Source: Oceanicola sp. 22II-s10i (GTDB lineage Bacteria > Pseudomonadota > Alphaproteobacteria > Rhodobacterales > Rhodobacteraceae). Taken from it: 64,000 nucleotides of DNA. The DNA lies in NCBI RefSeq assembly GCF_002210105.1, contig NZ_AQQU01000004.1, forward strand, positions 186,001 through 250,000, given 5' to 3'. Shown here one piece after another: positions 29,421-54,402 of the stretch (position 1 is the first letter of the stretch; each line of letters opens with the position of its first letter). A program made the translations under genes and the position numbers. The notes under the pieces were generated by a model, which was not told the DNA's origin, made no database searches, and saw nothing but the letters and a program-made list of their open reading frames with translations.

Positions 29421-29735
29421 GAGGGCAATGCAGGGCGATCGGGCTCCCATCTGCGGCGGGAGGGCAGTCTGAGGTTGATGTGCAGCTTCAGTGGCGCTGG
29501 TGCCAGTCAACGCGCGAGATGAATGCGTTATCCCCAATGCCACCCACTCCCTCAGTGATCATCTCCGTGGTGGCGAGTTCAGATCAGGGGGGCGCTGAAG
29601 GCCCCAAGTGCTTGGGGCATGACCGCTGTCACCTCATTGGGCAGTGGACGCTGGCCGGAAAACTGTTCAGGCTCCGCTTTAATGATTGAAATGATGTTCG
29701 TGTAAAATAGTGTGACTGAAGGGGGAGGGGCGATA

Positions 29736-33681: not shown

Positions 33682-33686
33682 CGCCG

Positions 33687-35870
33687 ATGAGCAGTGCGTT
33701 CGACAAGCTGGCGAGGCCTGTGCAGAAATGGATACGCCAGCAAGGATGGCGCGAGCTTCGCGACATCCAGGCGCGATCCATCCGGACGATCTGCGAGACC
33801 GATGCCGATTTGATCGTTGCGGCTTCCACGGCGGGCGGAAAGACCGAGGCGGCGTTCCTGCCGTTGATTTCACAGGTGCTTGACGAGCCGTTCGGCGGCA
33901 TCGGCTTCGACCTGCTTTATATCGGTCCGCTGAAAGCCTTGATCACGGACCAGGCCATGCGGCTGGAGGGCATCTGCCAGGAAGCAGAGCTGCCGGTTGT
34001 TCCATGGCACGGGGATGTTTCTCAATCGATCAAGACGCGCGCGCTGAAATCTCCAAAAGGGATCCTGCTGATAACTCCAGAGTCCCTTGAGGCACTGTTC
34101 ATTCGTCGCGGTTTGGAAATTAGCCGCCTGTTTGGGGCCACGCGCGCGGTCGTTATCGATGAGTTGCACACGGTTCTAGATAGCGAACGCGGTGTCCAGC
34201 TCCGTTCGTTGCTCACAAGGCTCGAGCTCACGATAAAGCGCCCACTCCGTCGGATAGGTCTGTCAGCTACGCTGGGCGACATGGACCTCGCCAAGGCCTA
34301 TCTTCGCCCTGACGCTGCAAACGCTGTCCAGCTCATAGAAGCAGATGGCGGCGAGGCTGAATTGAGGCTCCAGCTTCGCGGCTACGTATCAGGCGATGAG
34401 GATGAAAACAGCCCATCCGCAACGGATGCCATCGCAGCCCATCTGTTCAAGCACCTTCGAGGCAGCGACAACCTCGTCTTCGCTGGGGCGAGGCAACGAG
34501 TCGAGATCTATGCAGATCGGCTGCGGGAACTCTGCGAGAGGGAACATCTGCCGCAGGAATTCTATCCTCACCACGCTAGCCTCTCCCGCGAACACCGAGA
34601 CTTCGTGGAACGCCGCTTAAAGGACGCCGCAAAGCCGACAACTGCCGTCTGCACGTCGACGCTCGAGCTTGGAATCGACATCGGTGATGTGACCTGCGTG
34701 GCCCAAATCGGCGCGCCATTCAGCGTCGCCGCGTTGCGACAACGTCTCGGCCGGTCCGGCCGACGCGAGGGACAACCAGCCGTCTTGCGGCAGTATGCCG
34801 TCGAGACTCAGTTGACGCCAGAAAGCAGCTTCGTTGATCGTCTTCGCCTTGGTTTGATCCGGTCTATCGCGATGATAGACCTGTTACTTGAGGGGTGGTG
34901 CGAACCGCCAAGACCGCAGGCGCTTCATCTTTCGACGCTCGTCCATCAGATACTGTCTGTCATTGCACAACGCGGAGGTGCTTCTGCCAGTGTGGTCTAC
35001 AGAATCCTGTGTCGCGAGGGCCCCTTCCGCAAGGTCACAACCGAAGTTTTCGCGGATGTGTTGCGTTCGATCGGTCATACCGAAACCGGTTTGATCGAAC
35101 AGTCCGGAAGCGGACTGCTACTCTTGGGACCTGCAGGCGAAAAGCTGGTCGAACATTACAGCTTCTACGCAGTGTTTCAGACGCCTGAGGAATTCCGCTT
35201 GGTCGCAGACGGGAGGGATCTTGGCACCCTGCCGATTGACAATGTTCTTGCCCCAGGGATGCTTCTGATTTTCTCTGGGCGGCGGTGGGTGGTTCAGGAA
35301 ATCCATGACCGCGAGAAGGTGATCGTGGTCAAACCCGCGAAGGCGGGCGTGCCTCCTGTCTTTGGCGGTGATCCTGGTGACATTCATGACAAGGTGATTG
35401 ATCGAATGTTCGCAGTGCTCGAAGGAGGCACCCAACCGGCATACATGGACGCGGTTTCTCTAGAGATGCTAGACGAAGCGCGTGCACATTATGACCAACT
35501 TGGGTTTCGAGCCACAAATATCCAGGCTCTCAGCGAGCGTACATCGATCATCGCAACGCGAGTGGGGACGGTTAAGACGTCAACCCTGGCGCTCGCACTT
35601 AGAAGTGAGGGATTTTCAGTCGAGCAGCATGACGGGTTTCTGCTGGTGGAGGTCGGCGATGAAACACCTGATCTTCGAGCACTCCTGGCCGATATTCGAT
35701 CCGGCGAACCTGTCGATTTGTTCGCGGGAGCAGGAAACCTGATGTCGGAGAAGTTTCATCCATATCTGTCTAGCGCGCTTCTAGTTCTGGACGCGGAATC
35801 CTCAAGGTTGTCGGTGCAGGCGCTTCCGGATGTGGTCGCAGCTATTGTTCGAAAAGGATCCTTAAATTGA
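33687..35870 (+). CDS. Lhr/BrxHI-like DEAD/DEAH-box helicase
   Basis: This 727-aa superfamily 2 helicase has Walker A 'ASTAGGKT' (46-53), the Lhr-like 'YIGPLKALITDQ', motif II 'DELH' (158-161), motif III 'LSATLGD' and motif VI 'QRLGRSGRREGQ' near 350, with an extended C-terminal part as in Lhr-type helicases. It starts 5 nt after the ATPase stop. Together with the TerB-type and BrxD-like proteins it forms a three-gene operon. BrxHI of BREX type 2 is the closest named relative; no other BREX genes (pglX, pglZ, brxC) are nearby. Confidence 0.87.
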   Translation: MSSAFDKLARPVQKWIRQQGWRELRDIQARSIRTICETDADLIVAASTAGGKTEAAFLPLISQVLDEPFGGIGFDLLYIGPLKALITDQAMRLEGICQEAELPVVPWHGDVSQSIKTRALKSPKGILLITPESLEALFIRRGLEISRLFGATRAVVIDELHTVLDSERGVQLRSLLTRLELTIKRPLRRIGLSATLGDMDLAKAYLRPDAANAVQLIEADGGEAELRLQLRGYVSGDEDENSPSATDAIAAHLFKHLRGSDNLVFAGARQRVEIYADRLRELCEREHLPQEFYPHHASLSREHRDFVERRLKDAAKPTTAVCTSTLELGIDIGDVTCVAQIGAPFSVAALRQRLGRSGRREGQPAVLRQYAVETQLTPESSFVDRLRLGLIRSIAMIDLLLEGWCEPPRPQALHLSTLVHQILSVIAQRGGASASVVYRILCREGPFRKVTTEVFADVLRSIGHTETGLIEQSGSGLLLLGPAGEKLVEHYSFYAVFQTPEEFRLVADGRDLGTLPIDNVLAPGMLLIFSGRRWVVQEIHDREKVIVVKPAKAGVPPVFGGDPGDIHDKVIDRMFAVLEGGTQPAYMDAVSLEMLDEARAHYDQLGFRATNIQALSERTSIIATRVGTVKTSTLALALRSEGFSVEQHDGFLLVEVGDETPDLRALLADIRSGEPVDLFAGAGNLMSEKFHPYLSSALLVLDAESSRLSVQALPDVVAAIVRKGSLN

Positions 35871-36242: not shown

Positions 36243-37910
36243 CTAGCGGCGCAACCACTCGTCGCGGATCTTGTCGATCGCAAGATCCTTCCACTCTTGC
36301 TGCCAGAGGTCCCAGTAAGGAATATCAGTCGATGCTGGAGCCACCGTGCATTTCTCGATTTGGACTACAGACGGTAGGGCGACAGCCTCTCCGACGAGCA
36401 GCGCTTCGCCCTGCTTAAACCCGGGCATCTTGTCGATAAGCGTTCCCAGCGAGTCTGGCAGCAACTTGCGAACGTAGCCTTGGTCGACCGGATTGGTCAG
36501 GCGCATTGCGATGAAATTGTTGCATTGTGAAAAGATCGTCTCCGAAATCTCTGAGGGCCTCTGACTCGCTAGGAGCAGGGTGACACCATATTTACGACCC
36601 TCCTTGGCAATGCGCTCGATCGACATTTTCGACGCTCGGAACTTTGAAAGTTCGCTAGTCGGCACGTATTTGTGCGCTTCCTCGTAAACAAGGAGGATCG
36701 GTGCATCGTTGTTGATCTCTTCCTTCGGATTGGCGGCACAACGCAGCCGCTTATAGAAATAGCCATGCTCGAAAATCAGCCGCGAAATCAGGGAGACCGT
36801 GATGCTCAGGACCTCGAACGGGACGCCGCTCAGATCGATGACCGTAACGTTGTTATGCTTGTCAGCGCTATAGCCGAGAATGGATCGGAGCGTTTCCTCA
36901 AAAGAGATCGATTTAGAATTCTCGCCAAGGAAGAAGTCGAGGCGCCGATCATTAATCTTGTTCTCGAGACGATTCACAAAGTTGGTCAGCCGCCCATGAA
37001 GGCTACCCTGCGTGAGTTTCGGTTGTCCGGCCTTCGCCTTGTTACTAGCAGCATACACCTCGCCGGTGTCGACCATCTCGGTGTTGAGATGGTTGGCATG
37101 ATCCAAAACGTAGCGAATGTCGAACGGGAGCGGGGTGTCCAGATGGATCCGGTTCCTTTCGTCGTCATTTCCCGTAAACTCAGCCTTACGGCTTTGGATC
37201 ACGGCATCCTTGAACACGTTGCGCTGATTGTGGTCATTCGCCTCGGTGTCGAGAAAGAACTCTTCCAACTCCTCGCCGCTCAGCATCCAGTAGGGGAGAA
37301 CCAAGCTGGTGCTGTCGATGAAGTTCGCCTCCGGAAAAGCCGCACGATATTCCGAATGGATATCGAATATGATCACGTGAGAGTTGTTGAGCGTATAGTC
37401 GCCCTTGGCGCCAACCGCCTTCTGAATGATCTTCGCGACGGTGTGCGACTTGCCAGAGCCCGTAGAACCGACCACTGCGATATGCTTGTTGAAGAATTTA
37501 TTCCCGTCGACAGGAACCTCGACCTCATTGTTCGTCGCGAGGTTCGAAAAGCAGAAGCGATCCTTCACGGCTAGCGAACTTCCATAAATCAGTCGGATAT
37601 CGTCGATTGTCGCCGGTTGGACTGTCTTTGGTGGGATGGCGAGGGCGTCGCCCCCGCGCTCAAACTTCTGATCGCGCAGAACGCCGAGCGGGAAGGCCTC
37701 GATCACGTAGTCTTGGCTGCCGTCATCGCGCGCCTGAATCTGGAAATTCTCAATGATAGCGACCAGAACCGCGTTCTCATTGTCGGCGATCTTCAAGTAA
37801 GATCCGACGCGGAGAGACTCTTCAGCGATTCTGAAATTCTCGAGGTCATCGACAACAATCTTGACCTTGTTTGGAAAGACCGCGACTACTTCCGCTTTTA
37901 CATCACTCAT
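36243..37910 (-). CDS. HerA-like hexameric ATPase/translocase
   Basis: The 555-aa protein has a HAS-barrel N-terminal domain (residues 1-100), Walker A 'GSTGSGKS' at 148-155 and Walker B 'PILLVYEEAHKYV' near 400, with the arginine-finger region 'QCNNFIAMRLTNPVDQGYV'. HerA proteins pump or process DNA ends and partner with nucleases. The ATG at 37910 follows AGGAG and starts 8 nt after the stop of the DUF4297 gene, an operon. HerA plus DUF4297 pairs are established anti-phage systems. Confidence 0.9.
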   Translation of the reverse strand: MSDVKAEVVAVFPNKVKIVVDDLENFRIAEESLRVGSYLKIADNENAVLVAIIENFQIQARDDGSQDYVIEAFPLGVLRDQKFERGGDALAIPPKTVQPATIDDIRLIYGSSLAVKDRFCFSNLATNNEVEVPVDGNKFFNKHIAVVGSTGSGKSHTVAKIIQKAVGAKGDYTLNNSHVIIFDIHSEYRAAFPEANFIDSTSLVLPYWMLSGEELEEFFLDTEANDHNQRNVFKDAVIQSRKAEFTGNDDERNRIHLDTPLPFDIRYVLDHANHLNTEMVDTGEVYAASNKAKAGQPKLTQGSLHGRLTNFVNRLENKINDRRLDFFLGENSKSISFEETLRSILGYSADKHNNVTVIDLSGVPFEVLSITVSLISRLIFEHGYFYKRLRCAANPKEEINNDAPILLVYEEAHKYVPTSELSKFRASKMSIERIAKEGRKYGVTLLLASQRPSEISETIFSQCNNFIAMRLTNPVDQGYVRKLLPDSLGTLIDKMPGFKQGEALLVGEAVALPSVVQIEKCTVAPASTDIPYWDLWQQEWKDLAIDKIRDEWLRR

Positions 37911-37918
37911 GTCATCTC

Positions 37919-39133
37919 CTAAATTATCTTATTGATATCTTCGTATTTTGGAACCTGGAACCGGGTATGGTTGATGGCGACATCACCAAAGTCTTCAACC
38001 GGCTCACTGCTATAGAATTCGTATATCTCGCGTGAGCGACGGAATGACAGAAAGGTCTGCCGCGCCTCTGTTAGATTGCAGAATAGCCTCAGTGCCGGGC
38101 CGGCAACGGACGCGCGGCGGGAGATAGACCCGGCGTCGAACTGGGCCCCCTTGAAATCGTAGCCATCGACGAAGCGAACGTCTTCGTTGTGTAGCTCCTG
38201 TTTTAGACCGACAAGTTCGCTTTCGCCGATACCGACGAGCAGAACGTAAGGCGAGAAGGGCTTCGCGTCGCGCTTGGACAGCTTGGAATATTTCCGGGAT
38301 ATGGTCTTCAGAAGCATTTTAACCGTGCTTCGGCTATAGCTTCTACCAGCCAGATGGATGATGAAAAGCCGTTCCACAGGGGAGACGTTGACGCCACTTG
38401 CGAAGAACTCTTTGCGCAACTCAAGATAGTATTTATCCATACCGAGCTTAGCGATAAACCACTCATCAAAGAGATACGATGATGTGTCTATTCGCTTTAC
38501 AAAGGCTTTTCTTGTTATGACCCGCCGAGCCTCCTCCGATTCGGTGGCCAGTTCTTTGATAACTCGCAGGGCGCTGTTATAATAAAAGAACTCAGCCACG
38601 AACGGCGAGCACTCAAATTCTTCTGCCAGACTCTCGATGATACTCCGAAACTGATCGTCGAATTTCGCCGCGTTCACGTCGATGGATAGAAGTTTCAAGA
38701 AGCCTTCAAGCTCGGCGTCACTGAGACCCAGCTCTTCATGCTTTCTGATCGTTTTCCCCTTCGATGTAGTGGTGAGAAAATTCGACTTGAGGAATCCGAT
38801 ATCGAAAGGGAGCGCGAGCTTGTTCTGCCCAGACGCAAAATGCCCGCTAAGCTGATACTGGATCTCTGGCCGACCGGCGGTGAGGCCCGATTTGTAGTGT
38901 TCGAGCATGAAAAGGATCGCGGGCTTGATAACAGAATGGTTGTACTCGGATTTCTCATAATATTTACACTGGACGGCGGTTGTTTCCGTGGCCGTTTGGA
39001 CGTCAATGTCCTCGATGCATTCGATCGCCACAGAGTCATTATCTCCGGTTAGCGCGAGGATGCTGAGTATAGAGCGGTCGAACTGATAGAAATAGCCAGT
39101 AATCGTGGAAACCGCGCTCCGATCGGTCATCAT
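37919..39133 (-). CDS. DUF4297-like (Cap4-type) predicted dsDNA nuclease
   Basis: This 404-aa protein starts with the typical 'GYFYQFDRSILSILAL', then a PD-(D/E)xK-like block: E39, D42 in 'IECIEDIDV' and 'AVQCKYYE' supplying Q and K. This matches the DUF4297/Cap4 endonuclease family; the remaining 300 residues are helical and unassigned, as in other HerA partners. Translation can start at either of two adjacent ATG codons (39133 or 39130) after GGGGG. Its composition is visibly more AT-rich than the flanking chromosome, a sign of horizontal origin. Confidence 0.75.
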   Translation of the reverse strand: MMTDRSAVSTITGYFYQFDRSILSILALTGDNDSVAIECIEDIDVQTATETTAVQCKYYEKSEYNHSVIKPAILFMLEHYKSGLTAGRPEIQYQLSGHFASGQNKLALPFDIGFLKSNFLTTTSKGKTIRKHEELGLSDAELEGFLKLLSIDVNAAKFDDQFRSIIESLAEEFECSPFVAEFFYYNSALRVIKELATESEEARRVITRKAFVKRIDTSSYLFDEWFIAKLGMDKYYLELRKEFFASGVNVSPVERLFIIHLAGRSYSRSTVKMLLKTISRKYSKLSKRDAKPFSPYVLLVGIGESELVGLKQELHNEDVRFVDGYDFKGAQFDAGSISRRASVAGPALRLFCNLTEARQTFLSFRRSREIYEFYSSEPVEDFGDVAINHTRFQVPKYEDINKII

Positions 39134-39895: not shown

Positions 39896-41038
39896 CTATC
39901 GGTTTCCACCCCTTTCTTCCACGATGCCTTTACTGCGGTAGGCATCAAGCATCATGCGCGTATATTCGGCCGTGCTCCGGGTCATAGTGCCCAAACCTGG
40001 CCATGCGAACAACGGATCCGACCAAGTAACTTCCAACTCAATTTCGATCCCAAGCAGTGCGGCCACTTTGATCGCAGCGGTCGGCTCTTTGTCCTCGGGC
40101 CAGTAGTGATCCTCGAGGGAAACAATCACCTCGAGATCGTCATCAACCCAGATCTCGGCCAGACTCGCTCCCATTCGCTCGCTGGCACTCGCGGCATCCT
40201 CGAACAGGGCTGATCGGATCAGATGGGTCACCTGGTTCTTGTTGAGATCAAGCCTAGGCCGCGGATCAACAACTGACACGATGGGTTCAATCTCTTGCTC
40301 TTCGGCGCGGGATTGGACTGGCGCTGGCTTTTCATCGTTCCGTCCCAGCCAGAAGGCTTCTGGAAAGATGTTGATCGGTGAAGCGCCGCAGCCGGGGCAG
40401 TGCCATTGGTTTCCAGCGATCTGTGGACCGGTGATCTCTGCGTCGCAGTGAAGGCAGTACCAGAGGTTTGATTTCTCCATCTCCAAGAACGGATGGCGGA
40501 CCGTTCCCTCTGCATCCGGTTTTGTGGCGCGCCGTGGCCAATCAGAAAATCGTCGTGCCTTGACGCTCTTCATCAACTCCTTGGCAATTCCGATCGCCTC
40601 TGCAAGCAGCACTCGATCATTTATCGGGCTGTTCTGGGCGTGGCTGATGTCGATCTCGACATTCGGGGCCGCCGAGGGGTTTTCTGGCAGCACTATTCGC
40701 CAGCCCTCACCTTCCATATAAACGTCGCCGAGCATTGTCTTCAACTCGTATGGATGCCCCCTTACATCTCCCCGAGTAATTGCATTGGGCCCTCCGAATA
40801 CATGGTCAAAGGCCGCGCCTTCGTAGGAAGTAATGCGTTCCACAAACGCCTTGATTGAGGCGACTTGTGCTTCGGATGGGGTCCACTCTCTATTGGCGCT
40901 TCCTGTCAATGCGTTCCAATGAGGAAAGCCCAAACGATTGGCAACAAAGTCGAGTGCCACATGTTGCGGTTGCCCCATCGCTCTGGCGCAACGCTTTGCC
41001 AAGAGCTTCAATGTTTTAAGCTTGTCGTTCTCTGTCAT
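39896..41038 (-). CDS. zinc-ribbon protein of unknown function
   Basis: The 380-aa product has an N-terminal helical motif 'LKTLKLLAKRCARAMGQPQH' then 'VANRLGFPHWNALTG', resembling the N-terminal segment of certain plasmid/island-borne glyoxalase-like proteins. A zinc ribbon follows at about 203-228 ('WYCLHCDAEITG' ... 'WHCPGCGA'). The middle part has acidic stretches. I do not recognise a full-length family. It starts on ATG and stands alone in the island beside the dGTPase operon. A nucleic-acid or protein-binding role is inference from the ribbon. Confidence 0.75.
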   Translation of the reverse strand: MTENDKLKTLKLLAKRCARAMGQPQHVALDFVANRLGFPHWNALTGSANREWTPSEAQVASIKAFVERITSYEGAAFDHVFGGPNAITRGDVRGHPYELKTMLGDVYMEGEGWRIVLPENPSAAPNVEIDISHAQNSPINDRVLLAEAIGIAKELMKSVKARRFSDWPRRATKPDAEGTVRHPFLEMEKSNLWYCLHCDAEITGPQIAGNQWHCPGCGASPINIFPEAFWLGRNDEKPAPVQSRAEEQEIEPIVSVVDPRPRLDLNKNQVTHLIRSALFEDAASASERMGASLAEIWVDDDLEVIVSLEDHYWPEDKEPTAAIKVAALLGIEIELEVTWSDPLFAWPGLGTMTRSTAEYTRMMLDAYRSKGIVEERGGNR

Positions 41039-41461
41039 GATCCATGTCCAAGCTGGATCCGACTAGGTGCCCGCTGCTAATCAGACCCGCCGATGGCATG
41101 AAGTCTGCTGTTCGAAGTCAAGGTCGCTGCAAAGCTTCGCATGGCGGGCACACCGGCCTGCGAGAAAGGCCGAGATCAACATCTGCCATTTTCGAGCGCA
41201 GGTCAACACCGATGAATTACAGGCGTGGGAGTCCAACAACTAAGCATCGTTTGCCAGAAAGGGTACCAGTTTGACCGGTTTCACGGCGACGGGTTGAGGC
41301 CTGGGAGAGTGGTTCCCGGCGCCTGTCTCGGGAGATACCCAGATGATGTCCCGGCAACTTGTGTAGCTCCCCGCGGGCCTCGCGCTTTTAAGCAGGCCAT
41401 CGCGCTTGAACTTCGACGCGGCCGCTAGAGCGGTTGAGCATCGCCCTAGGGACAGTGCTCA
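41039..41461. other. non-coding stretch, no gene recognised
   Basis: About 420 bases between the zinc-ribbon gene and the end of the dGTPase gene. No protein-like frame or terminator is convincing; short open frames on the plus strand (for example 41044-41274) have no ribosome site. Confidence 0.4.
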
Positions 41462-42802
41462 CTAAAGCTTGTCGAACACTGAGCCCATCCTCGGCTCGAA
41501 CAGCCTTTCATAGGTCTTGAGCAGATAGGTGTCGGTCATACCAGCCACGAAATCGCTGATGTGCCGGAGGTCGCCATCTGCTGCTTCGAATTTCGCTTGC
41601 GCATCGCGCGGGAGCAAACGTTCTGGATCTGATTGCATTGCCTCAAAGACCGAGACAACCATGGATTGCCCCTTGAATTCGAGATGTTGCACGCCCGGAC
41701 TGCGAATAACCACCTGCATTACGAGCTCTTTTAGGGCCTTGAGGAAGCGGGCCTGACCTTCTGGAATCTCGACGCGCCAGCGGAGCAAGGGGTCTTGGAA
41801 TTCGGGACATTCGATGAAACGGACGGGTGTAATCAGATGATTGACCCACCGGCTGATCCAGCGCTTGCGCGTGTTGCTGTCGCCAAACAGCCCGTCGACC
41901 ATGGCCTCGTATGGGGCGTTGCTCTCGGTGGGGCCCTTCAGCCGCCTTTCTTCGACAAAGATTTTGCAGGATTCCTCGGGAACGAGGTCGCGGAACTGGC
42001 GCTCTGTGACGAGCCGAAGTGCAATGGCATCCTCCAAATCATGGACCCCGTAGGCGATATCGTCCGCGAGATCCATGATGCTGCAATCGAGAGACTTGTG
42101 GAGAGTGCGGGCATGCTTGCCTTCGCGCTTTTCGATCGACGTGAAGGCATCCCGATCGGCATTGCCGAGCGGCTCGAGAATCCAGTCGACGACGTCGGTT
42201 TCGCTGTCGAGATATCCCTTTGGCGGAGTCGAGGCTTTCAAGTCGATGGTTTGCAGAACCGAAGGGCCCTCCTGCAACCGCGGGCGCAATTCGGGGTTGC
42301 GCAACCTTGAGAGTGCAACAGGGTATTTCAAGACGCCAAGCATGGAACGACGTGACAGGTTGGCCCCCGCAGCGGCTGAGAAGTTTTCGAGCCGTGCCAG
42401 GAGACGCAGGGTCTGGCCGTTGCCCTCGAACCCTTCCGCATCGCGCATGCAGTAGTTCAGTGCGACTTCACCGCCATGGCCGAATGGTGGGTGGCCCAGG
42501 TCGTGGGAGCAGGCGATCGCATGGATTTGGCTGCGGTCCGGGAGACTTGCCGTTGCCGAGTGATCGGGGAAACTGCGCGCGAGCTGGACTGCGAGCCCTC
42601 CCGCGATCTGAGCAACTTCCAAGGAATGCGTCAGGCGCGTGCGATAGAAATCACTGTCGCCGAGATTCAGGATCTGGGTCTTGCCCTGCAATCTTCTGAA
42701 TGATGCCGAATGGATCACCCGGCCATAGTCGACATCCCCGATATTCCGGGCGTCTTCCTTCTGCGGGTTCCAGGCCTCTCGGCGAGCATTCCAAGTACTC
42801 AA
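41462..42802 (-). CDS. dGTP triphosphohydrolase family HD protein
   Basis: The 446-aa protein has the dGTPase-type core: 'RVIHSASFRRLQGKTQ' (29-43), H59 in 'RLTHSLEVAQIAGG', H100-D101 in 'ACSHDLGHPPFGHGGE', 'GFEGNGQTLRLL' and the last metal Asp in 'DLADDIAYGVHD' (about 247). All metal ligands are present, so it should split dNTPs into nucleosides and triphosphate. The start is TTG at 42802, 7 nt after AGGAG, with no ATG before the core. It follows the SMC-like ATPase by 24 nt. dGTPases of this family are known to block phage by depleting dNTPs, so a defence role fits. Confidence 0.87.
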   Translation of the reverse strand: MSTWNARREAWNPQKEDARNIGDVDYGRVIHSASFRRLQGKTQILNLGDSDFYRTRLTHSLEVAQIAGGLAVQLARSFPDHSATASLPDRSQIHAIACSHDLGHPPFGHGGEVALNYCMRDAEGFEGNGQTLRLLARLENFSAAAGANLSRRSMLGVLKYPVALSRLRNPELRPRLQEGPSVLQTIDLKASTPPKGYLDSETDVVDWILEPLGNADRDAFTSIEKREGKHARTLHKSLDCSIMDLADDIAYGVHDLEDAIALRLVTERQFRDLVPEESCKIFVEERRLKGPTESNAPYEAMVDGLFGDSNTRKRWISRWVNHLITPVRFIECPEFQDPLLRWRVEIPEGQARFLKALKELVMQVVIRSPGVQHLEFKGQSMVVSVFEAMQSDPERLLPRDAQAKFEAADGDLRHISDFVAGMTDTYLLKTYERLFEPRMGSVFDKL

Positions 42803-42826
42803 ATCAACTCTCCTCGGCGCGATGTC

Positions 42827-45800
42827 TTAAAGTTCATGAATGACCGGAGGCGTTACGCAAACGCTCTTTGCGATCTCGACCACGTGGCGGTGGTGGGTCA
42901 GGTAGATCGCTTGGCCGCGTCCGCCGATGGCTTCCATGACGCGGCAGGCGGCGCTGGTGCGTGCCTCGTCGAAGGTTTCGAAGATGTCATCGCAAAAGAA
43001 CGGGAGCCTCGTGCCCTGCGCGACAAGTTGTTCGTGGGCCGCTGCCCGCAGCGCTAAGTATAGCTGGAAGCGCGTGCCCTTGGACATTTCGACCGCACGC
43101 TTGCTGACCCCATTGCCATCGACGGCGAGCAAAATCTCGGACTCCTTGTCGATCTGGGTACTCAGGGTCGGATAGGCGCCTTGCGTGAGACTGGCGAAGC
43201 AGTCTTCCGTGGCTGTCAACATGCCGCTGCGATGGCTGTCGCGATAGCGCCGGATGGCGTCGGAGGCGAGGTGATGGCCCAGGGAAAGTTCGAGATGCTC
43301 CAAGGCAGCCTCTTCGAGCTGCAGTTCCAGCGTGGCTTTCTGCTCGACCAATTCCGCAACCGTGTCGTCTCCCTTCACCTCGGCTAGGGCATATTCGGCG
43401 GCTGTGCGGTTTTGAATGGCGAGGGTCAGCTCGTCCTCGGCATGGGCAAGATCGGATCGGTTGCTGTCGAGTTCGCCCTCCAATGCGGCAACTGAGGACT
43501 CTGCAAGCTGGGCGCGGGCTGTCTCGATGTCGGTCGTGCCCAGTTCGGCCAGGACCTGGCGGGTGATTTTCGCCAGCGCGGCGCGGTTGTCGATTGCTTT
43601 CTGCGTGCGAATTGCGGCCTCGCGCAGGGCGCCGATATCGCCCGGGGTGGTCGTATCGGGGAAAAGCATGGCGATGGTCGCGACCTCTTGGTCGATGGCG
43701 TTTTGTCGATCCTTGTGTTCGACAAGATCGGCCTCGGCCGTCTCGATCGCGGTGTCGAGTTTTCGGCCCGTCTCAGTGGCCGAACGCGCTTTTTCCGCCA
43801 GGGTTTTGAGGGCGGCGAATGTCTTTGCCGCCGTTGCGTGAGGCTCCTGCCCATGGGCGCGTGCCAGGCTGTCGATCTCCTGGGTGAACTGCTTTTGGTC
43901 CGCCTGCATGGTTGTGATCCGTCGCCCGGCTGCGGCCCGTGTGTTTTCGTGTTCGCGCAAAGCGCGCAGGGGCTCCAGCGATGCCTCCAGCCGTTCGGGG
44001 GGCAATGCCTCTCCGAGGAGGTCGTGGACCAGTGCGCGCCAGGTCTTCTTCGTATCCTCCTTTGCCTTAAACGCTTTTGCGTAACGCTCTTCGCGCCGGG
44101 CAAGATCCCGCTGCGCCTGTCGCAGGGTTGCCTCGGCCGTTGTATGGGCGTCGGTTTGCTTGCGGTCGTCCTCGGCCTGACGCCGGGCCGCCGCCAGGGC
44201 GCCGGTCAGGTCTGTCGGGGGAAAGGGCAGGGTCCGGGCCAGCTCGGCCAGTAGGGCGTCGGCGCGTTGGAGGGTGGATTGATTGGTCTCTTCGGTATCG
44301 CGCAGGGCCTGGGCATCTTCGCTGGCCGCCTCGTGACTTCGCCGCCAGTCCAACCATTCCGCAGGCGTGATGCTGTCTGGAAGGCCAACCTGAGCCGCCG
44401 CCGCGCTGACCGAGGCCTCGATATTGGTGCGTTCTTCACGAAGGGTTTCCAGGCGTTTGTCGGTCTGAGCCGCACGGGCGCGGGCCTGGGCTTCGGCCTG
44501 GCCGATTTCGCGGAGCTGTGCCAGTTCGCGGGACTGCGCCAATCGCGCTTCGGCAGCGATATCATGCCCTTGCATTGCCTCGTGGAAGTCGGCGGCGGTC
44601 TGTCTGTCCAAGGCGGCAAGATGCTCCGCCCAGCGTGCATCGCGCCGCGCGCGCAGATCCTCGGCATCGGCATCCGAGATGAGCTTCGCGTCCCGGGCCA
44701 GTGATTTGGCCTGAGCCCCGCGGGCCTCCGCATCCTCCAGATGCTCGTCGCGCTTTGCCGTTGTCGTGCGCAGGTCGTGAAGCAAGTCCTGATGGCGCTC
44801 GGCCCAGTTGGTTGCCTGGTGACGTGAGGTCGGGCAGGCGGGTAGGTGATCGAAAGTGACGCCTGCGAATGAGAGCGCAGCCAGGGAGCGCCGCGCCTTG
44901 ATCTTCATATCCGCGATCGCCTGTTGCGCTGCGGCGTAGGCAGGGGCGAGGGTCTCCGCATCGAAGCGCAGCAGAATATCTGCTACCTGTGGGCGTTCCT
45001 CATCCGCGGGCGCGCCATCCTGCATGGCTTCGGTCGCGGCGATCACCCGCTCTTTCAATTCGGCGGTTTCGCGCGCCTCGATCTTTTCTTGGGAAATCGC
45101 CTCGCGCAGAGCTTCCCTGGCGCTCTCCAGAGACGCAATATCGGCGCCCGACAGGACCAGCCCTTGCAGATCGACGTCTGGCGAGGTGACCCCAAGATCC
45201 CATGCAGCCTGCTTCATCGATGCCTCCGCGGCCCGCCGTTCGTCCTCGCGCCTGTCAAGGTCGAGCTGTGCGGTTCGATCCCGCGCGGCGAGATCCTCCA
45301 GCGCTGCCAGCGCGGTCGAAAGCTCAAGACGCTTCGGATCCAAGGCGACGGCGTCGCGATTTTCCCTGAGGTTCGCGATCTCCTCGGTCAGGCGTGCGAT
45401 ATTCTGTGTGGCCAGCCCACGGTCTCTGTTTAGCTCGATCAGCCGTTCCGGATCGAAATCCAGTTGATCGGGATAACTCGCGAAAGAGGCAATCGCCTGT
45501 TCCAGGTCCCGGATCTCGCCCATCAGGGGCAGGGCACGCCGCTGCGCCTCCATGCGCGCCTTCGTCAGATTCAGCGCATCCCGCGTCTTGCGCGCCTCCC
45601 GCTCGGCCTCTTGTGCCTTGCGCAAATCTTTCTTGAGGGCCTTCCAGGCGCTGGCGGTCACGTCGCGGTCTTTGATCTCTTTTTCAACGTCGGCCAAGGC
45701 GCGTTTCAATTCGGCCATGTGGGTGGTGCGTCCGCGTTTCTTCCATAGCGCGTCGGCCCGCTCGCGGACGTGATCCAGAACGGTGCTCAGGTCGGCCACG

Positions 45801-46264
45801 CCCGCTGCAGCGGAAAAGAGCAGGCGCCCGATATCCCCTTCGGCATTTGCGATCTCTTCGCCGCCGCGTTCGATTGTCTCGTCGTCAAGGCAGAGCAGGC
45901 GGCGGTAATCCTCTTCGGACAATCCCGCGAGATGGGCGGAGAGGGCAGCCTCGGGCAGCGGGGTGCCGGTCGCGTCGACCAGCGATCCGCTGCGCGTCGG
46001 TAGTCGCGTGAAATCACGCAAGACACCGTCGATGTCCAGCCTGGCCGAGACTTGGAGGTTATTGCGCGGATGCTTGAACGCATAGCCCTCGCGCAGCGGG
46101 AAGCCGTAGAATAGCCGTAGGACGGCTTCCATCGTGGTGGTTTTTCCGGCTTCGTTCGGGCCATAGATGATGTGGAAATCATGGCCATCGGAGGCCGAGC
46201 CAAAGTCGAAGTGCCGGTCGGTGAAATGGCCGAAACGATCAAGGGAGAGGCGCTGGAGCCGCAT
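42827..46264 (-). CDS. SMC/YhaN-like AAA ATPase with long coiled coil
   Basis: This 1145-aa protein has Walker A 'GPNEAGKT' (35-42) directly after the N-terminal strand, 'LVDATGTPLP...' and a signature-type 'GDIGRLLFSAAAGVADLS', a ~700-residue coiled coil rich in Glu, Arg and Ala, and a C-terminal Walker B 'LPFFCDDIFETFDEART' near 1100. This is the layout of YhaN, the SbcC/Rad50-like partner of a YhaO nuclease. Its ATG overlaps the stop of the phosphoesterase gene by one base (TGATG). It should form an ATP-dependent DNA-end nuclease with that protein. Confidence 0.87.
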   Translation of the reverse strand: MRLQRLSLDRFGHFTDRHFDFGSASDGHDFHIIYGPNEAGKTTTMEAVLRLFYGFPLREGYAFKHPRNNLQVSARLDIDGVLRDFTRLPTRSGSLVDATGTPLPEAALSAHLAGLSEEDYRRLLCLDDETIERGGEEIANAEGDIGRLLFSAAAGVADLSTVLDHVRERADALWKKRGRTTHMAELKRALADVEKEIKDRDVTASAWKALKKDLRKAQEAEREARKTRDALNLTKARMEAQRRALPLMGEIRDLEQAIASFASYPDQLDFDPERLIELNRDRGLATQNIARLTEEIANLRENRDAVALDPKRLELSTALAALEDLAARDRTAQLDLDRREDERRAAEASMKQAAWDLGVTSPDVDLQGLVLSGADIASLESAREALREAISQEKIEARETAELKERVIAATEAMQDGAPADEERPQVADILLRFDAETLAPAYAAAQQAIADMKIKARRSLAALSFAGVTFDHLPACPTSRHQATNWAERHQDLLHDLRTTTAKRDEHLEDAEARGAQAKSLARDAKLISDADAEDLRARRDARWAEHLAALDRQTAADFHEAMQGHDIAAEARLAQSRELAQLREIGQAEAQARARAAQTDKRLETLREERTNIEASVSAAAAQVGLPDSITPAEWLDWRRSHEAASEDAQALRDTEETNQSTLQRADALLAELARTLPFPPTDLTGALAAARRQAEDDRKQTDAHTTAEATLRQAQRDLARREERYAKAFKAKEDTKKTWRALVHDLLGEALPPERLEASLEPLRALREHENTRAAAGRRITTMQADQKQFTQEIDSLARAHGQEPHATAAKTFAALKTLAEKARSATETGRKLDTAIETAEADLVEHKDRQNAIDQEVATIAMLFPDTTTPGDIGALREAAIRTQKAIDNRAALAKITRQVLAELGTTDIETARAQLAESSVAALEGELDSNRSDLAHAEDELTLAIQNRTAAEYALAEVKGDDTVAELVEQKATLELQLEEAALEHLELSLGHHLASDAIRRYRDSHRSGMLTATEDCFASLTQGAYPTLSTQIDKESEILLAVDGNGVSKRAVEMSKGTRFQLYLALRAAAHEQLVAQGTRLPFFCDDIFETFDEARTSAACRVMEAIGGRGQAIYLTHHRHVVEIAKSVCVTPPVIHEL

Positions 46265-47499
46265 CAGTGTCCGGCCCCCTTCATCTGGGCCAGGACGACG
46301 TCGGCGCCGGCCTTGGTCAATTTATCCACCATCGCATCGCGCGCGGCCTCATCCGGCAGCAAGCGGTCGCGCAGGGTAACGGGCAGTTCCTGCAGGACGG
46401 TCTCGACCTCGTCGCGGGCGAGGGCGGCAAAGCCGGGCTCGCCGCGGATCGTTGCCATGATCGTCGCCAGTTCGTCGGCGGCGCCGCTTGCGCCTTCGGT
46501 TGCGTCCGGCGGCGGCAGGTCGAACAGGAGTTTGTCGATCCAGAGATCCCCGGTGGCCTGGGCAAGCTCGTTCACCTGTTCGATCCAGACATCGCGATCC
46601 CGTAGGATTTGCCAATGGCGCTTCGGCGTTCCGGTCAAGATCAGTCGGATAACGCCGATCGGCGCCGCGATCTGGTTGCGCATCGCACTCAGGTGGGACT
46701 TCAGCAGCCCGCGCAGAGCCTCGTCGCTCTCCGTCTCTGTCACATCCAGTTCGCTTTGGGCGAATTCCACGACCGAACTGGGTACTTCGCTAATATCGAT
46801 CTGGCCCTGATCGATGGTCAGCAGCGTCGCGGATTTTGGGCCGGACTCGCCTATATCTCGCCCCTGCGGGGTGCCGGGCATGACAATCCAGGGTGCGGCC
46901 GAATGGACCTGCCGTTTGTGGATATGGCCGAGCGCCCAATAATCGAACCCCATGCCGGCCAGATCGGCGAGGCTGCAGGGGGCATAGATATCATGACCCG
47001 CCGCACCGCCAAGCGAGCTGTGCAGCATGGCAATATTCACCACGCCCGGAACCGGCGGTTTGAACCGCGGCAGAAGGCTGTCGGGCGCGTGACGGTCCGC
47101 GAAGCTGACACCGTGGATCACGATGTCGTCTGTCAGCGGCACCATGCCGCCGCGTGCATCGAAAGCGTGAACTTGGGCAGGCAGATCAAGCGCTCCGGTG
47201 ATCGGGTTCTCGGCATCATGATTGCCTTTGATGTAGAAAACTTTGATCCCCGCATCGCCAAGGCGATCAAGCTCGGCCATCAGGAAGGCGCCCGTTCTTG
47301 CGCTGCGCTCTTTTCCATCGAACAGATCGCCGGAAATCAGGACTGCGGAGAGCTGTTCGGAGATGGCGAAATCGACCAGTCCGCGGAAAGCGGACCGGGA
47401 GGCTGCTGCAACCGCGTCGCGAAGGTCCGAGTTGCGCAAGGCCAGTGACCTGAGGGGAGAGTCCAAATGGACGTCAGCAGTGTGAAGAATTTTAATCAA
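46264..47499 (-). CDS. YhaO/SbcD-like metallophosphoesterase (Mre11 family)
   Basis: The protein has calcineurin-type phosphoesterase motifs in order: 'HTADVHLDSP', 'SGDLFDG', 'GNHDAE' and 'GHIHKR', so all metal sites are intact. The TTG at 47499 is chosen: AGGGG lies 7 nt before it and the product begins M-IKILHTADVHLD as in the family; a GTG 24 nt further up gives an odd extra N-terminus. The last 150 residues are helical and probably bind the ATPase. It is first in an operon with the SMC-like ATPase and the dGTPase. Confidence 0.87.
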   Translation of the reverse strand: MIKILHTADVHLDSPLRSLALRNSDLRDAVAAASRSAFRGLVDFAISEQLSAVLISGDLFDGKERSARTGAFLMAELDRLGDAGIKVFYIKGNHDAENPITGALDLPAQVHAFDARGGMVPLTDDIVIHGVSFADRHAPDSLLPRFKPPVPGVVNIAMLHSSLGGAAGHDIYAPCSLADLAGMGFDYWALGHIHKRQVHSAAPWIVMPGTPQGRDIGESGPKSATLLTIDQGQIDISEVPSSVVEFAQSELDVTETESDEALRGLLKSHLSAMRNQIAAPIGVIRLILTGTPKRHWQILRDRDVWIEQVNELAQATGDLWIDKLLFDLPPPDATEGASGAADELATIMATIRGEPGFAALARDEVETVLQELPVTLRDRLLPDEAARDAMVDKLTKAGADVVLAQMKGAGH

Positions 47500-47783: not shown

Positions 47784-48449
47784 CTATCCTCCGAATAAAT
47801 CTCCTGTTTTGGATCGTTCGTCGAGGAGATCATAGAAGGTTTCCATGTGTTTTATGAAGCCCTCTTCAGTAACTCTGTAACGAAAATCAAAGGTTTCTGC
47901 TTTGAATTTTCGTATCCCGGACAGTTCTGGGTACTCTGCCAAAATTAAGAAATGCGGGACTTTCCTCTCGGTCGCGGCAATGGCGTTAACGATCGCATGC
48001 CTCTGTTGCTGCTTGAGTGGAGGTGACTTATAGGGATAAATGAAGACTTCGAAAATTTCCTGATTTGCCTTGAAGCTAAAGTCAGGTGAAATGTCGACTT
48101 CATGTTTTCCGAAGGCGATAGCCCGTCGCTCACGTTCGATGAAATTTGCTTTACCAATTGGAATATATCCGCAGATTCCGTCAAATATTCCTAATTTTGC
48201 AGCGGCTTCCCCAGGCCCATCCAAGGCCGCAATCGTGTCGCGCGCTTTATCTACGGGGTATCCTTTCAGGATCATAGTCAGGATATGATAGAGATCTTCG
48301 TAGTTCCAAACGCCGCCGCGTTGAGCATCATATGCGGCGATTTTTTCTTTTAGTCTTTGCCGCTCTGAGGATGTTCCCGAAGGCCCATGTGCGCCGGGAT
48401 TATATTCGCCTAACCCTCTGAGAAATTCGGTCTTTGACGTTCGTCGCAC
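47784..48449 (-). CDS. hypothetical protein
   Basis: The 221-aa product starts MRRTSKTEFLRGLGEYNPGA. Mid-protein features are 'ILTMILKGYPVDKARDTIAA' and 'YEDLYH', and the C-terminal half is rich in aromatics (FDFRYRVTEEGFIKHMETFY). I recognise no family. It is more AT-rich than its neighbours and lies between the phosphoesterase promoter region and the AbiE pair; the direction matches both. Real gene probability is good because of length and composition; function unknown. Confidence 0.65.
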   Translation of the reverse strand: MRRTSKTEFLRGLGEYNPGAHGPSGTSSERQRLKEKIAAYDAQRGGVWNYEDLYHILTMILKGYPVDKARDTIAALDGPGEAAAKLGIFDGICGYIPIGKANFIERERRAIAFGKHEVDISPDFSFKANQEIFEVFIYPYKSPPLKQQQRHAIVNAIAATERKVPHFLILAEYPELSGIRKFKAETFDFRYRVTEEGFIKHMETFYDLLDERSKTGDLFGG

Positions 48450-48577
48450 GCGCGCCTCGGATGCAGGATGAAATACAGATTTGAAGTCAAAACGACCCTT
48501 GGCATTGCGTCAAGACGTGACATTGCCAAGATCATCGGATTTCCGCTATCTGGCGTGAAGTCTGTATGCCCACCTGC

Positions 48578-49612
48578 TCAGGTGCGGATGTGCTGATTGT
48601 TTTCTGCGAGCTTTGCGCGCTCGGCAATGGATGCGCAACGTTCGATGAGGTCGTCGAAACGCTCAGCGTCTTCAAGCAATAGGCCGTCGTCGACCATGTG
48701 CGCGTAGTCGGCCGCGAGCGCGGTGCGAGCCTCTCCGTTTGGGACCAGTTGCAGATTGCCATGAACCGCGGCTTCATAGTCCACGGGTGTTCCGCCGGCC
48801 GTCTTCTCCGGGAAGAACATACGCTTGTGCCGCGCGACTGCTGAGGCGAGGTCTCGGTCGGAAATAGCCACATCCGCGATGCCTGCATCGTCGAGGCGTA
48901 CCAGGTCATGCCAATGGCGCGCGAAGCGCTCCCCGCGGAGCCGACCCTGTACGCAAAAGACATGGATCGCCGTGGCCTTCTCCCAAAAGGTTCGTTCGGC
49001 ATGCATCACGCGCGGTGTCGCGGTCGGAAAGGTCACGCCCTCGATCAGCCCGTTCGCATCGCAGGTGACGTCACGCAGGCTCGCCGGTTCGCCGGTCGAT
49101 CTCGCGCCGAATTCCAGCATGACGCTGGGGGCGACATAGCCGGAGCCAGAAGAGGCGGCTTTGTAATCGATGAAAAGCTTGTCGCCATCTGCCCGTGTCG
49201 AGGCCGATAGCCCTTGCGCTGCAATGGCGTCCTGGATCAAGGGCTGCGTCGTTTCGACGACCCATTTTGGCAATCTATCCCGAACAGCTTTCGACCAGCG
49301 CTTTTCCTCACTGCGTGTGGTTGGCAGGGCTTCGGCGCGTTCTCCCACCAGATCAGGTGCGATTGCCCGTATGTCATAGGTCAGATCGACATCTTCAGAG
49401 AAGCGCTGGATCACCCCATAGGCTTTGGAAAGGGATGTTCCGCCCTTGAAAACGAGGTGCTCACCAAGCTCGGAACTGAAGAGGGTCTGAAGGGCCCAGA
49501 CAACCCAGACGTCCTTTTCGAGCAGGTGCGCGGGCCGCCCGGAGCGATCTGCAGCTACGGCCAGGGCTTCCTTGCGGTCTGCAGGCGGCAAAGACAGGAA
49601 GAGTTCAGACAT
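48578..49612 (-). CDS. AbiEii toxin (nucleotidyltransferase)
   Basis: The 344-aa product starts MSELFLSLPPADRKEALAVA; the motif 'VFKGGTSLSKAYGVIQRFSE' then 'DVDLTY' is the AbiEii/MenA nucleotidyltransferase pattern (G-[GS]-x-S...D-[LIV]-D). The start at 49612 is chosen because it overlaps the antitoxin stop by 8 nt; an in-frame GTG/ATG further up adds nothing family-like. It is the toxin of a type IV TA pair that modifies tRNA or other substrates and causes abortive infection. Confidence 0.88.
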   Translation of the reverse strand: MSELFLSLPPADRKEALAVAADRSGRPAHLLEKDVWVVWALQTLFSSELGEHLVFKGGTSLSKAYGVIQRFSEDVDLTYDIRAIAPDLVGERAEALPTTRSEEKRWSKAVRDRLPKWVVETTQPLIQDAIAAQGLSASTRADGDKLFIDYKAASSGSGYVAPSVMLEFGARSTGEPASLRDVTCDANGLIEGVTFPTATPRVMHAERTFWEKATAIHVFCVQGRLRGERFARHWHDLVRLDDAGIADVAISDRDLASAVARHKRMFFPEKTAGGTPVDYEAAVHGNLQLVPNGEARTALAADYAHMVDDGLLLEDAERFDDLIERCASIAERAKLAENNQHIRT

Positions 49613-50198
49613 GCGCCGCCTTTCCGACACTGCGTGCAAGCCAGGTCGGGAACTGCGGTGCTGCGGTTACCAATTCGTCAAACGCCGCTGCGGGCAGTTT
49701 CTGCTTCAGCGATCTAAGAGCTGTCTCTGCCTGTTCCGGCCCGAGCCAGGCCAGGGCGCGAACAGCACTGCCAGCCGGCCTCTTCCCGAGGGCGAGTTGC
49801 CATCGGGGGGCGTGGCGCAGTTCCACGAGTTGTTTGCCCAATGAGAGCGTGCGGCTGCGACCCGAGGTCAGGTACACGGAGCGAACAGGCACTTGCGTGG
49901 TCAGGCCGAGTGCATTCGCTTCGGCGGCGCCGGTTGGAACGATGATTTCGCCACGTTGCGCCGCGAGGGCCTCGACGGCCTGTTCCACGGACGGAGCGCG
50001 CGTTCCAAACCGGCTTTTGATCGGTCGCAGGTAAACGCCGCGCCCGGCACGGATCAACTGGCCGCGCTCGGCAAGGCGCGACAAGGCCTGATCCACACCG
50101 GCACGGCTGCCGAGGTGCAGCAGGCCCTTTGCGGCAAGTGGCGCTCCTTCCGGAAGTCCCTCTGCATGGGTCAATATCTGTTCTGCAAGGTGCTGCAT
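49605..50198 (-). CDS. AbiEi-type antitoxin/repressor
   Basis: The 197-aa product starts MQHLAEQILTHAEGLPEGAP; an N-terminal winged helix-turn-helix (AGVDQALSRLAERGQLIRAG, then GRGVYLRPI) precedes a C-terminal domain as in AbiEi/DUF6088 proteins. It stops within the AbiEii gene (8-nt overlap) and is preceded by a perfect 10-bp inverted repeat at 50209. It should repress its own operon and neutralise the toxin. Confidence 0.87.
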   Translation of the reverse strand: MQHLAEQILTHAEGLPEGAPLAAKGLLHLGSRAGVDQALSRLAERGQLIRAGRGVYLRPIKSRFGTRAPSVEQAVEALAAQRGEIIVPTGAAEANALGLTTQVPVRSVYLTSGRSRTLSLGKQLVELRHAPRWQLALGKRPAGSAVRALAWLGPEQAETALRSLKQKLPAAAFDELVTAAPQFPTWLARSVGKAAHV

Positions 50199-52204: not shown

Positions 52205-53275
52205 TCACGTGTTGCCGATTGCGAGCTGCATTCCAGGCCAGTTTACATATTTATCGCCTGTTTCCCGGATATGCGTATAGCGTTTCAGGCTAACCCATGA
52301 CCTGTGTCCGCTGACCGCCGCGACATGGGGAATGTTCCAGCCCATCTCGAATAGCCGAGAAATGCCTTCATGGCGCAGATCGTGGAAGTGCAGATCCTCG
52401 ATCCCGAGCAGCTTGCAAGCGCGGGTGAAGTTGGCCGTGATTGCGTCCGGTGAGTAGGGGAAAATCTCACCTTTATGCCCGGGCATGCTGTCGATGATCC
52501 GAATGGCTTCCTCAGGCAGATCGACCCAGGTATCGTTTCCGAGCTTCTCGCCGGGATGCTTCATGTCACGAACAAGGATGCGTTTATGCTCCTTCTGGAA
52601 ATCGTCCCAGGTGAGTCGGGTGATCTCTGCCTGTCGGCGCGTCGAGAAGAGAGCGAACACGATCACCTTGTGCATGGGCATGGCCTGAGGTGTTCTCTGG
52701 CGCCGATCAATGAAATGAGCCAGCAGCCGGTCGAGTTCATCGAGGGTGGGTCTGCGGTTCCGCTGCGCGGAACGCGAGATGATCCCCATGCGGCGTGCGA
52801 CGGTGATCGCGTCTCTCATCTCTCGGTCATCCAGTCGGAAGTCCCACATCGGTCGAGCTATGGCGAATATGGAGGCGAGGTGGCTCGCGTAGTTCCCGAC
52901 GGTTTGCGGTTGTCCGGGCAGAGACTGAAGGAACTCGATGATATCCTTCGACTTGATGGTGGAGCAGGGCAGATCGGCGATTGGGTAGGTCGCGATGGTC
53001 CTGAGGACCTGCGCTTTCGTGCGACCGATTTCCTTTACGGCCTCTTCAGTGTAGCGCTCGATCGCTTTGGATAGCGGAGGGTCAGATACGTTCAGCTCCT
53101 CCAAGGCACCAGGCTTTGCTAGTTCTTTCTCGCGCTTCTTTATCCAGGTCGTCGCAGCTGGGCGTCTGTCAAAAGTCTTCGTCTCGTGATAGACGGTTCC
53201 CTCGCGCATCACTCGTACACGTGCCCTGTAGCTGTGACTTCCATCCTTGCGTTTGCGTGTGGTGATCGAGCCCAT
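52205..53275 (-). CDS. tyrosine recombinase (dusA-specific integrase)
   Basis: The 356-aa integrase starts MGSITTRKRKDGSHSYRARV, an N-terminal arm-binding domain typical for these integrases. The catalytic set is complete: Arg in 'FSTRRQAEITRLTWDD', 'HDLRHEGIS', 'SGHRSW' and Tyr in 'LKRYTHI'. ATG 53275 is preferred over longer in-frame options that overlap the dusA start. It lies beside dusA and reads away from it, exactly as known dusA-type integrases do; it should catalyse insertion and excision at the att repeats. Confidence 0.92.
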   Translation of the reverse strand: MGSITTRKRKDGSHSYRARVRVMREGTVYHETKTFDRRPAATTWIKKREKELAKPGALEELNVSDPPLSKAIERYTEEAVKEIGRTKAQVLRTIATYPIADLPCSTIKSKDIIEFLQSLPGQPQTVGNYASHLASIFAIARPMWDFRLDDREMRDAITVARRMGIISRSAQRNRRPTLDELDRLLAHFIDRRQRTPQAMPMHKVIVFALFSTRRQAEITRLTWDDFQKEHKRILVRDMKHPGEKLGNDTWVDLPEEAIRIIDSMPGHKGEIFPYSPDAITANFTRACKLLGIEDLHFHDLRHEGISRLFEMGWNIPHVAAVSGHRSWVSLKRYTHIRETGDKYVNWPGMQLAIGNT

Positions 53276-53394
53276 GATGGCCTCCCCATTTGGTCCACGA
53301 AATTGTATTTGGTCCACGGGACCAAATCCAGTGTCGAAATCGACGGGTTTGGCCCATGATGAGCGGAAACGAGACGAAATGTAGGTGCCTGTAA

Positions 53395-54402
53395 GTGACT
53401 GAAAAATATAAAAAACAAGACTTATCAAGAGTTTCCTGCCTGTCCGTGGCCCCGATGATGGACTGGACGGACCGCCATTGCCGATTCCTGCACCGCATGC
53501 TGTCGCGGGAGACGCTGCTCTATACCGAGATGGTGACCGCGCCGGCGTTGGTGCGGGGCGGCGCGGTGCATCTGCTGGACTTTTCGCCCGAGGAGCATCC
53601 GGTCGCCCTGCAGCTTGGCGGCTCGGATCCGGAGGAACTGGCCGAGGCCGCCCGGCTCGGGCAGGCGGCGGGGTATGACGAGATCAACCTCAACGTGGGA
53701 TGCCCGTCGGACCGGGTGCAGTCCGGCACCTTCGGGGCGGTGCTGATGAAGCAGCCGGGCCTCGTGGCCGATTGCGTCGCCGCGATGCGCGAGGCGGTGT
53801 CGGTCGAGGTCACCGTGAAATGCCGCATCGGCGTGGACGATCAGGACCCCGAAACGGTGCTGCCGGACTTTCTGGACCGCATCCGGGGCGCCGGTGTCGG
53901 CCGGGTGACGATCCACGCGCGCAAGGCGTGGCTGCAGGGGCTGAGCCCGAAGGAGAACCGGGATATTCCGCCGCTCGACTACGGGCTGGTGCTGCGGATG
54001 AAGCAGGCGTTTCCGGATCTCCACCTGTCGATCAACGGCGGTATCGCCTCTCTGCCGCAGGCGGTGGAGCTGCTGGAGGCGGGGATGGACGGGGTGATGG
54101 TGGGCCGGGCCGCATATCACGCGCCGACAGACATTCTGGCCGCGGCGGACCGGGTGATCTATGGCCACGACGCGCCCGTTACCGACCCGGTCGCGGTGGC
54201 GCGCGGGATGTTGCCCTATATCGAACGGCATCTGGCGCAGGGTGGAAAACTGGCGCAGGTGTCACGGCACATGCTGGGCCTGTTCGCCGGACGCCCCGGC
54301 GCGCGGCACTGGCGCCGGGTGCTGTCCGAAGGCGCGCACCGCCCCGGTGCTGGGCCCGAACTGGTCGAGGCGGCGCTGTCCGACCTCGCGCAGGCGGCCT
54401 AG
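53395..54402 (+). CDS. dusA: tRNA-dihydrouridine synthase A
   Basis: The 335-aa FMN enzyme reduces uridines in the tRNA D-loop. Seen: 'LSVAPMMDWTD' at about 16-26, 'NVGCPSDRVQSG' with the catalytic Cys near 105, 'KCRIGVDD', 'HARKAWLQGLSP' and 'NGGI'. The start is a GTG at 53395 within island DNA, giving a leader MTEKYKKQDLSRVSC unlike the old leader at 28886; so the island provides a new start and probably a new promoter. Its stop and that of the convergent MFS gene share CTAG. Confidence 0.92.
   Translation: MTEKYKKQDLSRVSCLSVAPMMDWTDRHCRFLHRMLSRETLLYTEMVTAPALVRGGAVHLLDFSPEEHPVALQLGGSDPEELAEAARLGQAAGYDEINLNVGCPSDRVQSGTFGAVLMKQPGLVADCVAAMREAVSVEVTVKCRIGVDDQDPETVLPDFLDRIRGAGVGRVTIHARKAWLQGLSPKENRDIPPLDYGLVLRMKQAFPDLHLSINGGIASLPQAVELLEAGMDGVMVGRAAYHAPTDILAAADRVIYGHDAPVTDPVAVARGMLPYIERHLAQGGKLAQVSRHMLGLFAGRPGARHWRRVLSEGAHRPGAGPELVEAALSDLAQAA
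53438..53471 (+). repeat. attR: right attachment repeat, inside dusA
   Basis: 34-bp copy of the repeat at 28914-28947, with three third-codon-position mismatches. It lies at codons 15-26 of the present dusA. Confidence 0.85.

Follow-up and report, generated by a model that had tools for sequence, protein, structure and literature searches.

The locus analyzed here, in which three genes encode a YhaO-like phosphoesterase, a YhaN-like ATPase, and a dGTPase, is most likely a known anti-phage dGTPase within a mosaic defence island and not a recurrent new system. It lies in a 64,000-nucleotide (nt) stretch of the genome of Oceanicola sp. 22II-s10i (NZ_AQQU01000004.1, 186,001-250,000), termed the window, the numbering of which is used for all positions. 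Two independent modules have probably been joined in one putative transcription unit, the mobile anti-phage dGTPase standing behind a YhaO-YhaN pair, and what is seen resembles genes that came together recently more than it does a new defence system of wide occurrence.

All three genes are read from the reverse strand. The YhaO-like phosphoesterase of the Mre11/SbcD type (46264..47499; PF00149 at 50 bits, plus motifs) is followed by the YhaN-like ATPase of the SMC/Rad50 type (42827..46264) and then by the HD-domain dGTPase (41462..42802), which has 446 amino acids (aa) and a TTG start. The longest form of the first open reading frame (ORF) occupies 46264-47523 and begins with GTG; the TTG at 47499, taken as the start in the initial annotation, matches the N-terminus of relatives such as those in L157 and L165. 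The TGA stop of YhaO and the ATG of YhaN overlap by one base, while the 24-nt gap between the YhaN stop and the dGTPase TTG (42803..42826) holds GGAGAG. The three ORFs, their motifs and the operon-like layout described in the initial annotation are thus confirmed by the ORF coordinates, the overlap, the gap and a reading of the motifs, and the genes are probably read as a single message. Promoter-like sites (3 versus 1.7 in shuffled sequence) and terminator-like sites (11 versus 7.9) are near shuffle levels. The ORFs are not chance occurrences, since they are intact in five genera and the ratio of nonsynonymous to synonymous divergence (dN/dS) is 0.13-0.24 in the most diverged pair.

The dGTPase scores 530.4 bits against the curated NCBIfam model for anti-phage dGTPases, NF041026, for which the cut-off is 400, and matches the PADLOC dGTPase model at E 7.4e-143. 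Its Pfam domains are HD and HD_assoc, and its best sequence match in the PDB is 9p8w (E 1.7e-101), an entry titled dGTPase-like protein. Residues H59, H100, D101, H109, E112, D247, and D248 are all present and invariant in an alignment of 19 sequences that includes the window's own; their assignment as ligands, like that of the motif residues of the other two proteins, follows the respective families. A second dGTPase, encoded on another contig of the genome, is above the cut-off of two PRK01286 models and attains 261 of the 400 bits that NF041026 requires. The window enzyme was therefore rejected as the housekeeping copy, and its description as an enzyme with a full set of ligands and of the anti-phage type, not a housekeeping paralogue, holds. 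With the anti-phage dGTPase of Shewanella putrefaciens it shares the family model, the HD ligands, and a defence-island setting; it differs in lying 24 nt behind YhaO-YhaN, whereas the known anti-phage dGTPase stands alone or behind another gene. According to PMC12265719, which cites Tal et al. 2022, the single Shewanella putrefaciens protein inhibits phage. The same source describes anti-phage dNTPases as regulated by unknown mechanisms, with one case, Clover, solved; there the related dGTPase effector CloA is under the control of nucleotides and not of DNA ends (PMC12265719). Clover, composed of the CloA dGTPase and the CloB nucleotidyltransferase, resembles the present locus as a multi-gene defence locus with a dGTPase effector, but in the window the dGTPase is partnered by a nuclease and an ATPase. 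None of its neighbours was recognised as CloB-like, in searches that used neither a CloA nor a CloB model: the dGTPase adjoins YhaN and a 380-aa protein, the latter lacking a nucleotidyltransferase match, and the AbiEii nucleotidyltransferase close by is paired with an antitoxin of its own.

The other two genes, one for a phosphoesterase and the PF13514 ATPase gene that follows it directly, form a YhaO-YhaN pair. As the initial annotation had reported, the metal motifs of YhaO are intact and YhaN is 1145 aa in length. Numbered from the GTG start, the YhaO motifs are D17xH19, G65D66xxD, G100N101H102D, H168, and G199HxH202. In YhaN (PF13514 at 220 bits), Walker A (GPNEAGKT) lies at 35-42 and the signature MSKG at 1059, and Walker B is FFCDDIFE as read from the ORF translation. 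It is the sole strong match to PF13514 (AAA_27) in the genome, at 225.6 bits, the next three being at most 22, and no solved structure matched it by sequence at E 0.001. The pair resembles SbcCD (Mre11-Rad50) in combining a phosphoesterase with an SMC-like ATPase. It differs in that YhaO, a calcineurin-like phosphoesterase, falls below the cut-off of the SbcD model TIGR00619 (58.3 versus 77.65 bits), no CxxC hook motif was found in the YhaN sequence, and a dGTPase follows downstream. Against PADLOC, YhaO had no match and YhaN showed a weak likeness to LmuB of Lamassu (E 1.4e-9), the best stretch being residues 4-48, with no single stretch passing. A phage origin was rejected for both YhaN and the dGTPase: a search of 50,697 phage records for YhaN gave nothing at E 1e-5 and none of its 26 pattern hits in a viral-contig scan was confirmed, while the dGTPase was matched there in four contigs at no more than 59% identity.

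The distribution of the genes was examined in 394 genomes of the family, approximately one per genus, with the dGTPase counted at E up to 1e-100 and YhaN at E up to 1e-60. This dGTPase is present in 7 genomes and YhaN in 57, and both occur together in 5, namely the window's own and G138, G229, G272, and G239, which carry five different genus labels. This dGTPase is thus missing from 52 of the YhaN genomes, and YhaN from 2 of the 7 dGTPase genomes. The set's other genome of the window's genus (G192) has neither. In G051, a distant anti-phage dGTPase (403 bits on NF041026, below the E limit of the count) is located approximately 480 kb from YhaN on the same contig. Fisher's test on the association gives p = 0.0009 uncollapsed; it is not significant when the five copies are counted once as one block (p = 0.36). 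The initial annotation had put the trio forward as a candidate new defence system, proposed this count as the check, and held that rarity elsewhere would speak against it. The combination was found to be largely rare, in 5 of the 57 YhaN genomes, with copies alike enough to be one block, so a recurrent three-gene system was not borne out.

The likeness of the five copies is considerable. Identity to the window is 92.6-99.2% in nucleotides and 91-99% in amino acids for YhaN, and 96-99% in amino acids for the dGTPase. G229 matches window positions 32312-50335 at 99.1% and continues to 50729 (45444-50729 at 97.5%); G138 matches 40587-50745 at 98.3%, and its contig ends 121 nt from the 40587 side; G272 matches 39569-50745 at 96.8%; and G239 matches 40527-51462 at about 94%. 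From these comparisons, the five co-occurrences look like one recently transferred block. A gene for a PrtN-like pyocin activator (PF11112, 50334-50858, reverse strand) is found at the block edge, where the homology of three genomes stops at 50729-50745. Against G239, the dGTPase has a dN/dS of 0.13, YhaN one of 0.24, and YhaO one of 0.23, which indicates that the trio is kept by selection; the corresponding synonymous divergences (dS) are 0.15, 0.19, and 0.17. Values of dS against G272 are less even, at 0.065, 0.115, and 0.076.

Each half was also examined for its occurrence without the other. Apart from the window, 99 dGTPase loci were scanned for YhaN and YhaO, comprising 79 of 80 from a genome-contig scan (among the matches listed), 10 of the 75 plasmid records with a match, two of the four viral contigs, and 8 genome stretches. 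The two viral contigs at 59% identity are within this count and two at 33-35% are outside it, as is L010, which was treated as the same contig as G272 on the grounds of its length and identity. At least 500 nt of DNA upstream of the dGTPase was in view at 98 loci, and 14 nt at one. Among the matches listed, YhaN and YhaO stand beside the dGTPase at four loci only, those where dGTPase identity is 95.9% or more; the count is 0 of 20 loci at 57-82% and 0 of 75 below. Three further genera (18, 3, and 5 genomes) gave one useful dGTPase, that of G409, which at 81-82% identity is the nearest relative outside the block for which the context is known. No YhaN was present in the 556 nt upstream of it, and a Dsr1-like SIR2 gene is located nearby. 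Conversely, 14 YhaN loci at 42-75% identity were fetched from the 52 YhaN genomes without this dGTPase. YhaO is directly upstream in all 14, and the dGTPase is absent in all 13 with downstream DNA in view, the last ending inside YhaN. Of 231 plasmid records with a YhaN match, five annotated loci likewise had no dGTPase; three of these lie among metabolic genes and the other two are immediately preceded by a gene of toxin type (VapC; AbiEii). The AbiEii-family case is a Phyllobacterium plasmid (L095, 5985-11489), on which the gene precedes a distant YhaO-YhaN pair, like the window's arrangement. Furthermore, the closest named relatives outside the block belong to different genera, at 69-75% for YhaN (Roseicitreum, Celeribacter, Tritonibacter, Phaeobacter, Pseudooceanicola) and at 77-83% for the dGTPase (Sinirhodobacter, Rhodobacter, Paracoccus, Cereibacter), with Paracoccus and Celeribacter in both lists at lower identity. 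In the literature, YhaO and YhaN were not tied to phage defence or to a dGTPase in the titles and abstract openings among the matches listed.

The dGTPase is also found behind other partners. On two rhizobial plasmids (L106, 1938-7356; L107, 110-5514), one from Agrobacterium and one from Rhizobium, it follows GajA-GajB (Gabija) with a gap of 155-156 nt. As in the window, the dGTPase there is directly behind a module of the nuclease-ATPase type, although Gabija takes the place of YhaO-YhaN and the gap differs. On three Sphingobium plasmids it comes after toxin-antitoxin or unrelated genes. These arrangements fit a dGTPase that is a mobile effector of one gene, able to insert behind one module or another.

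The setting in a defence island, where the initial annotation had spoken of an integrative island, is supported by the neighbours, since the trio is flanked by known defence systems. These are Shango SngA-SngB-SngC (29712..35870, forward), the HerA-DUF4297 pair (36243..39133, reverse; NF042944, NF042945), and, inside the shared block, an AbiEii/AbiEi type IV toxin-antitoxin pair (48578..50198, reverse). A protein of 380 aa with no family over cut-off (39896..41038, reverse) marks the edge of the block; 171 of its residues are matched in G239, and in G138 the contig ends within it. Upstream of YhaO, a 221-aa protein without a family (47784..48449, reverse) accompanies the trio in all five copies; this orphan gene has a low GC content of 0.467 and could be a further component. 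The AbiEii gene shows dS of 0.17 in G138, where the trio has 0.006-0.026, and of 0.075 in G229 (trio 0.003-0.026); for SngC, dS is 0.21 in G272 and 0.11 in G239. These values speak for the trio, or the trio with the 221-aa gene, being a more coherent piece than its neighbours. Shango genes occur in four of the five blocks (the window, G229, G272, and G239), G229 having SngB and SngC, with only the last 27 residues of SngA matched. In the window, Shango adjoins the convergent HerA-DUF4297 pair (29712-39133). That pair is common to the window and G229 only; in G272, as read on L010 (13235-21338), Gabija lies between SngC and the block instead, which suggests that the slot between Shango and the block holds exchangeable cargo. 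A tyrosine integrase (52205..53428, reverse) lies beside a dihydrouridine synthase (dus) gene (53395-54402, forward), and the parts of the other four genomes that were read contained neither. A comparison of 53001-54000 with 15001-52000 for att repeats, as exact matches of at least 13 bases, gave only four, of 13-14 bases. Two ORFs that overlap by 10 nt (24296-27960, forward) and encode 613 and 610 aa lie upstream of Shango, at a distance of approximately 1.7 kb; searches of Pfam, PADLOC, NCBIfam, and PHROGs gave no match for them.

On the preferred reading, a known and mobile gene for an anti-phage dGTPase came to lie immediately behind a YhaO-YhaN pair. During infection, by analogy with the Shewanella enzyme, the dGTPase alone would most likely hydrolyse dGTP and starve phage DNA synthesis. 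YhaO-YhaN would be a separate DNA-end nuclease-ATPase resembling SbcCD/Mre11-Rad50, the contribution of which would be at most additive. Several observations weigh against this independence. The uncollapsed association is significant (p = 0.0009). The 24-nt gap is kept in all five genomes, across five genera and a synonymous distance of up to 0.15-0.19, and stays constant while HerA-DUF4297, Gabija, and the integrase vary around the block. AbiEii has diverged separately within the same block, so that the trio holds together better, as a functional unit would. Moreover, at 74-83% dGTPase identity, a range that includes enzymes of Paracoccus yeei, Cereibacter azotoformans, Sinirhodobacter populi, and metagenome contigs, the context considered is that of G409 alone. 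A functional link between the halves is possible, given that all three genes are intact, and kept by purifying selection, in five genera. In a true three-gene system, YhaO-YhaN would sense or process phage DNA ends and activate the dGTPase, with depletion of dGTP as the result. The one-base overlap, the gap identical in the four other genomes, and the recurrence of Shango genes (SngA mostly missing in G229) all point that way, as do selection on all three genes in the most diverged pair and the fact that, in G138 and G229, the trio has diverged more evenly than AbiEii. We nevertheless regard such a system as unlikely, though with a real chance of being correct, since most YhaN genomes and two dGTPase genomes lack the other half, the co-occurrences look like one recent block, and the 221-aa gene is an equally constant companion, so that the trio is not singled out. 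Coupling of end sensing to dGTP destruction is further opposed by the relatives of each half that occur without the other, by the report, in PMC12265719, of a single anti-phage dGTPase in Shewanella putrefaciens, and by the nucleotide control of CloA described there. Somewhat more doubtful is the specific form in which YhaO-YhaN is an infection sensor that switches on the dGTPase, in a young system that arose once in the family and is spreading among genera, often beside Shango.

A reading in which the YhaO-YhaN pair forms the defence unit, as a nuclease of the SbcCD type acting on phage or plasmid DNA, with the dGTPase as a second, unrelated system, is improbable. Placement in the island, the LmuB likeness of YhaN, and the toxin-type genes upstream of two plasmid relatives are consistent with it, but three of the five plasmid relatives lie among metabolic genes, YhaO has no PADLOC match, and the LmuB match is confined to the ATPase N-terminus, where no stretch passes alone. 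A housekeeping operon for DNA repair and nucleotide balance, present in the island by accident, is highly improbable: the genome has a separate housekeeping dGTPase, and the block is patchy (5 of 394 genomes) with surroundings that differ between genera, even though YhaO-YhaN is an accessory pair in 57 of the 394 genomes and the window's YhaN is the only strong match of its kind in the genome.

Two independent modules therefore remain the probable explanation of the locus, and a short intergenic gap in a defence island need not mean one system. If the trio were functional, it would be the first case known to us in which a DNA-end-processing complex drives an effector that depletes dNTPs. The arrangements described here suggest that genes for anti-phage dGTPases are mobile additions, which come to rest behind one partner or another: YhaO-YhaN in this block and Gabija on two rhizobial plasmids.

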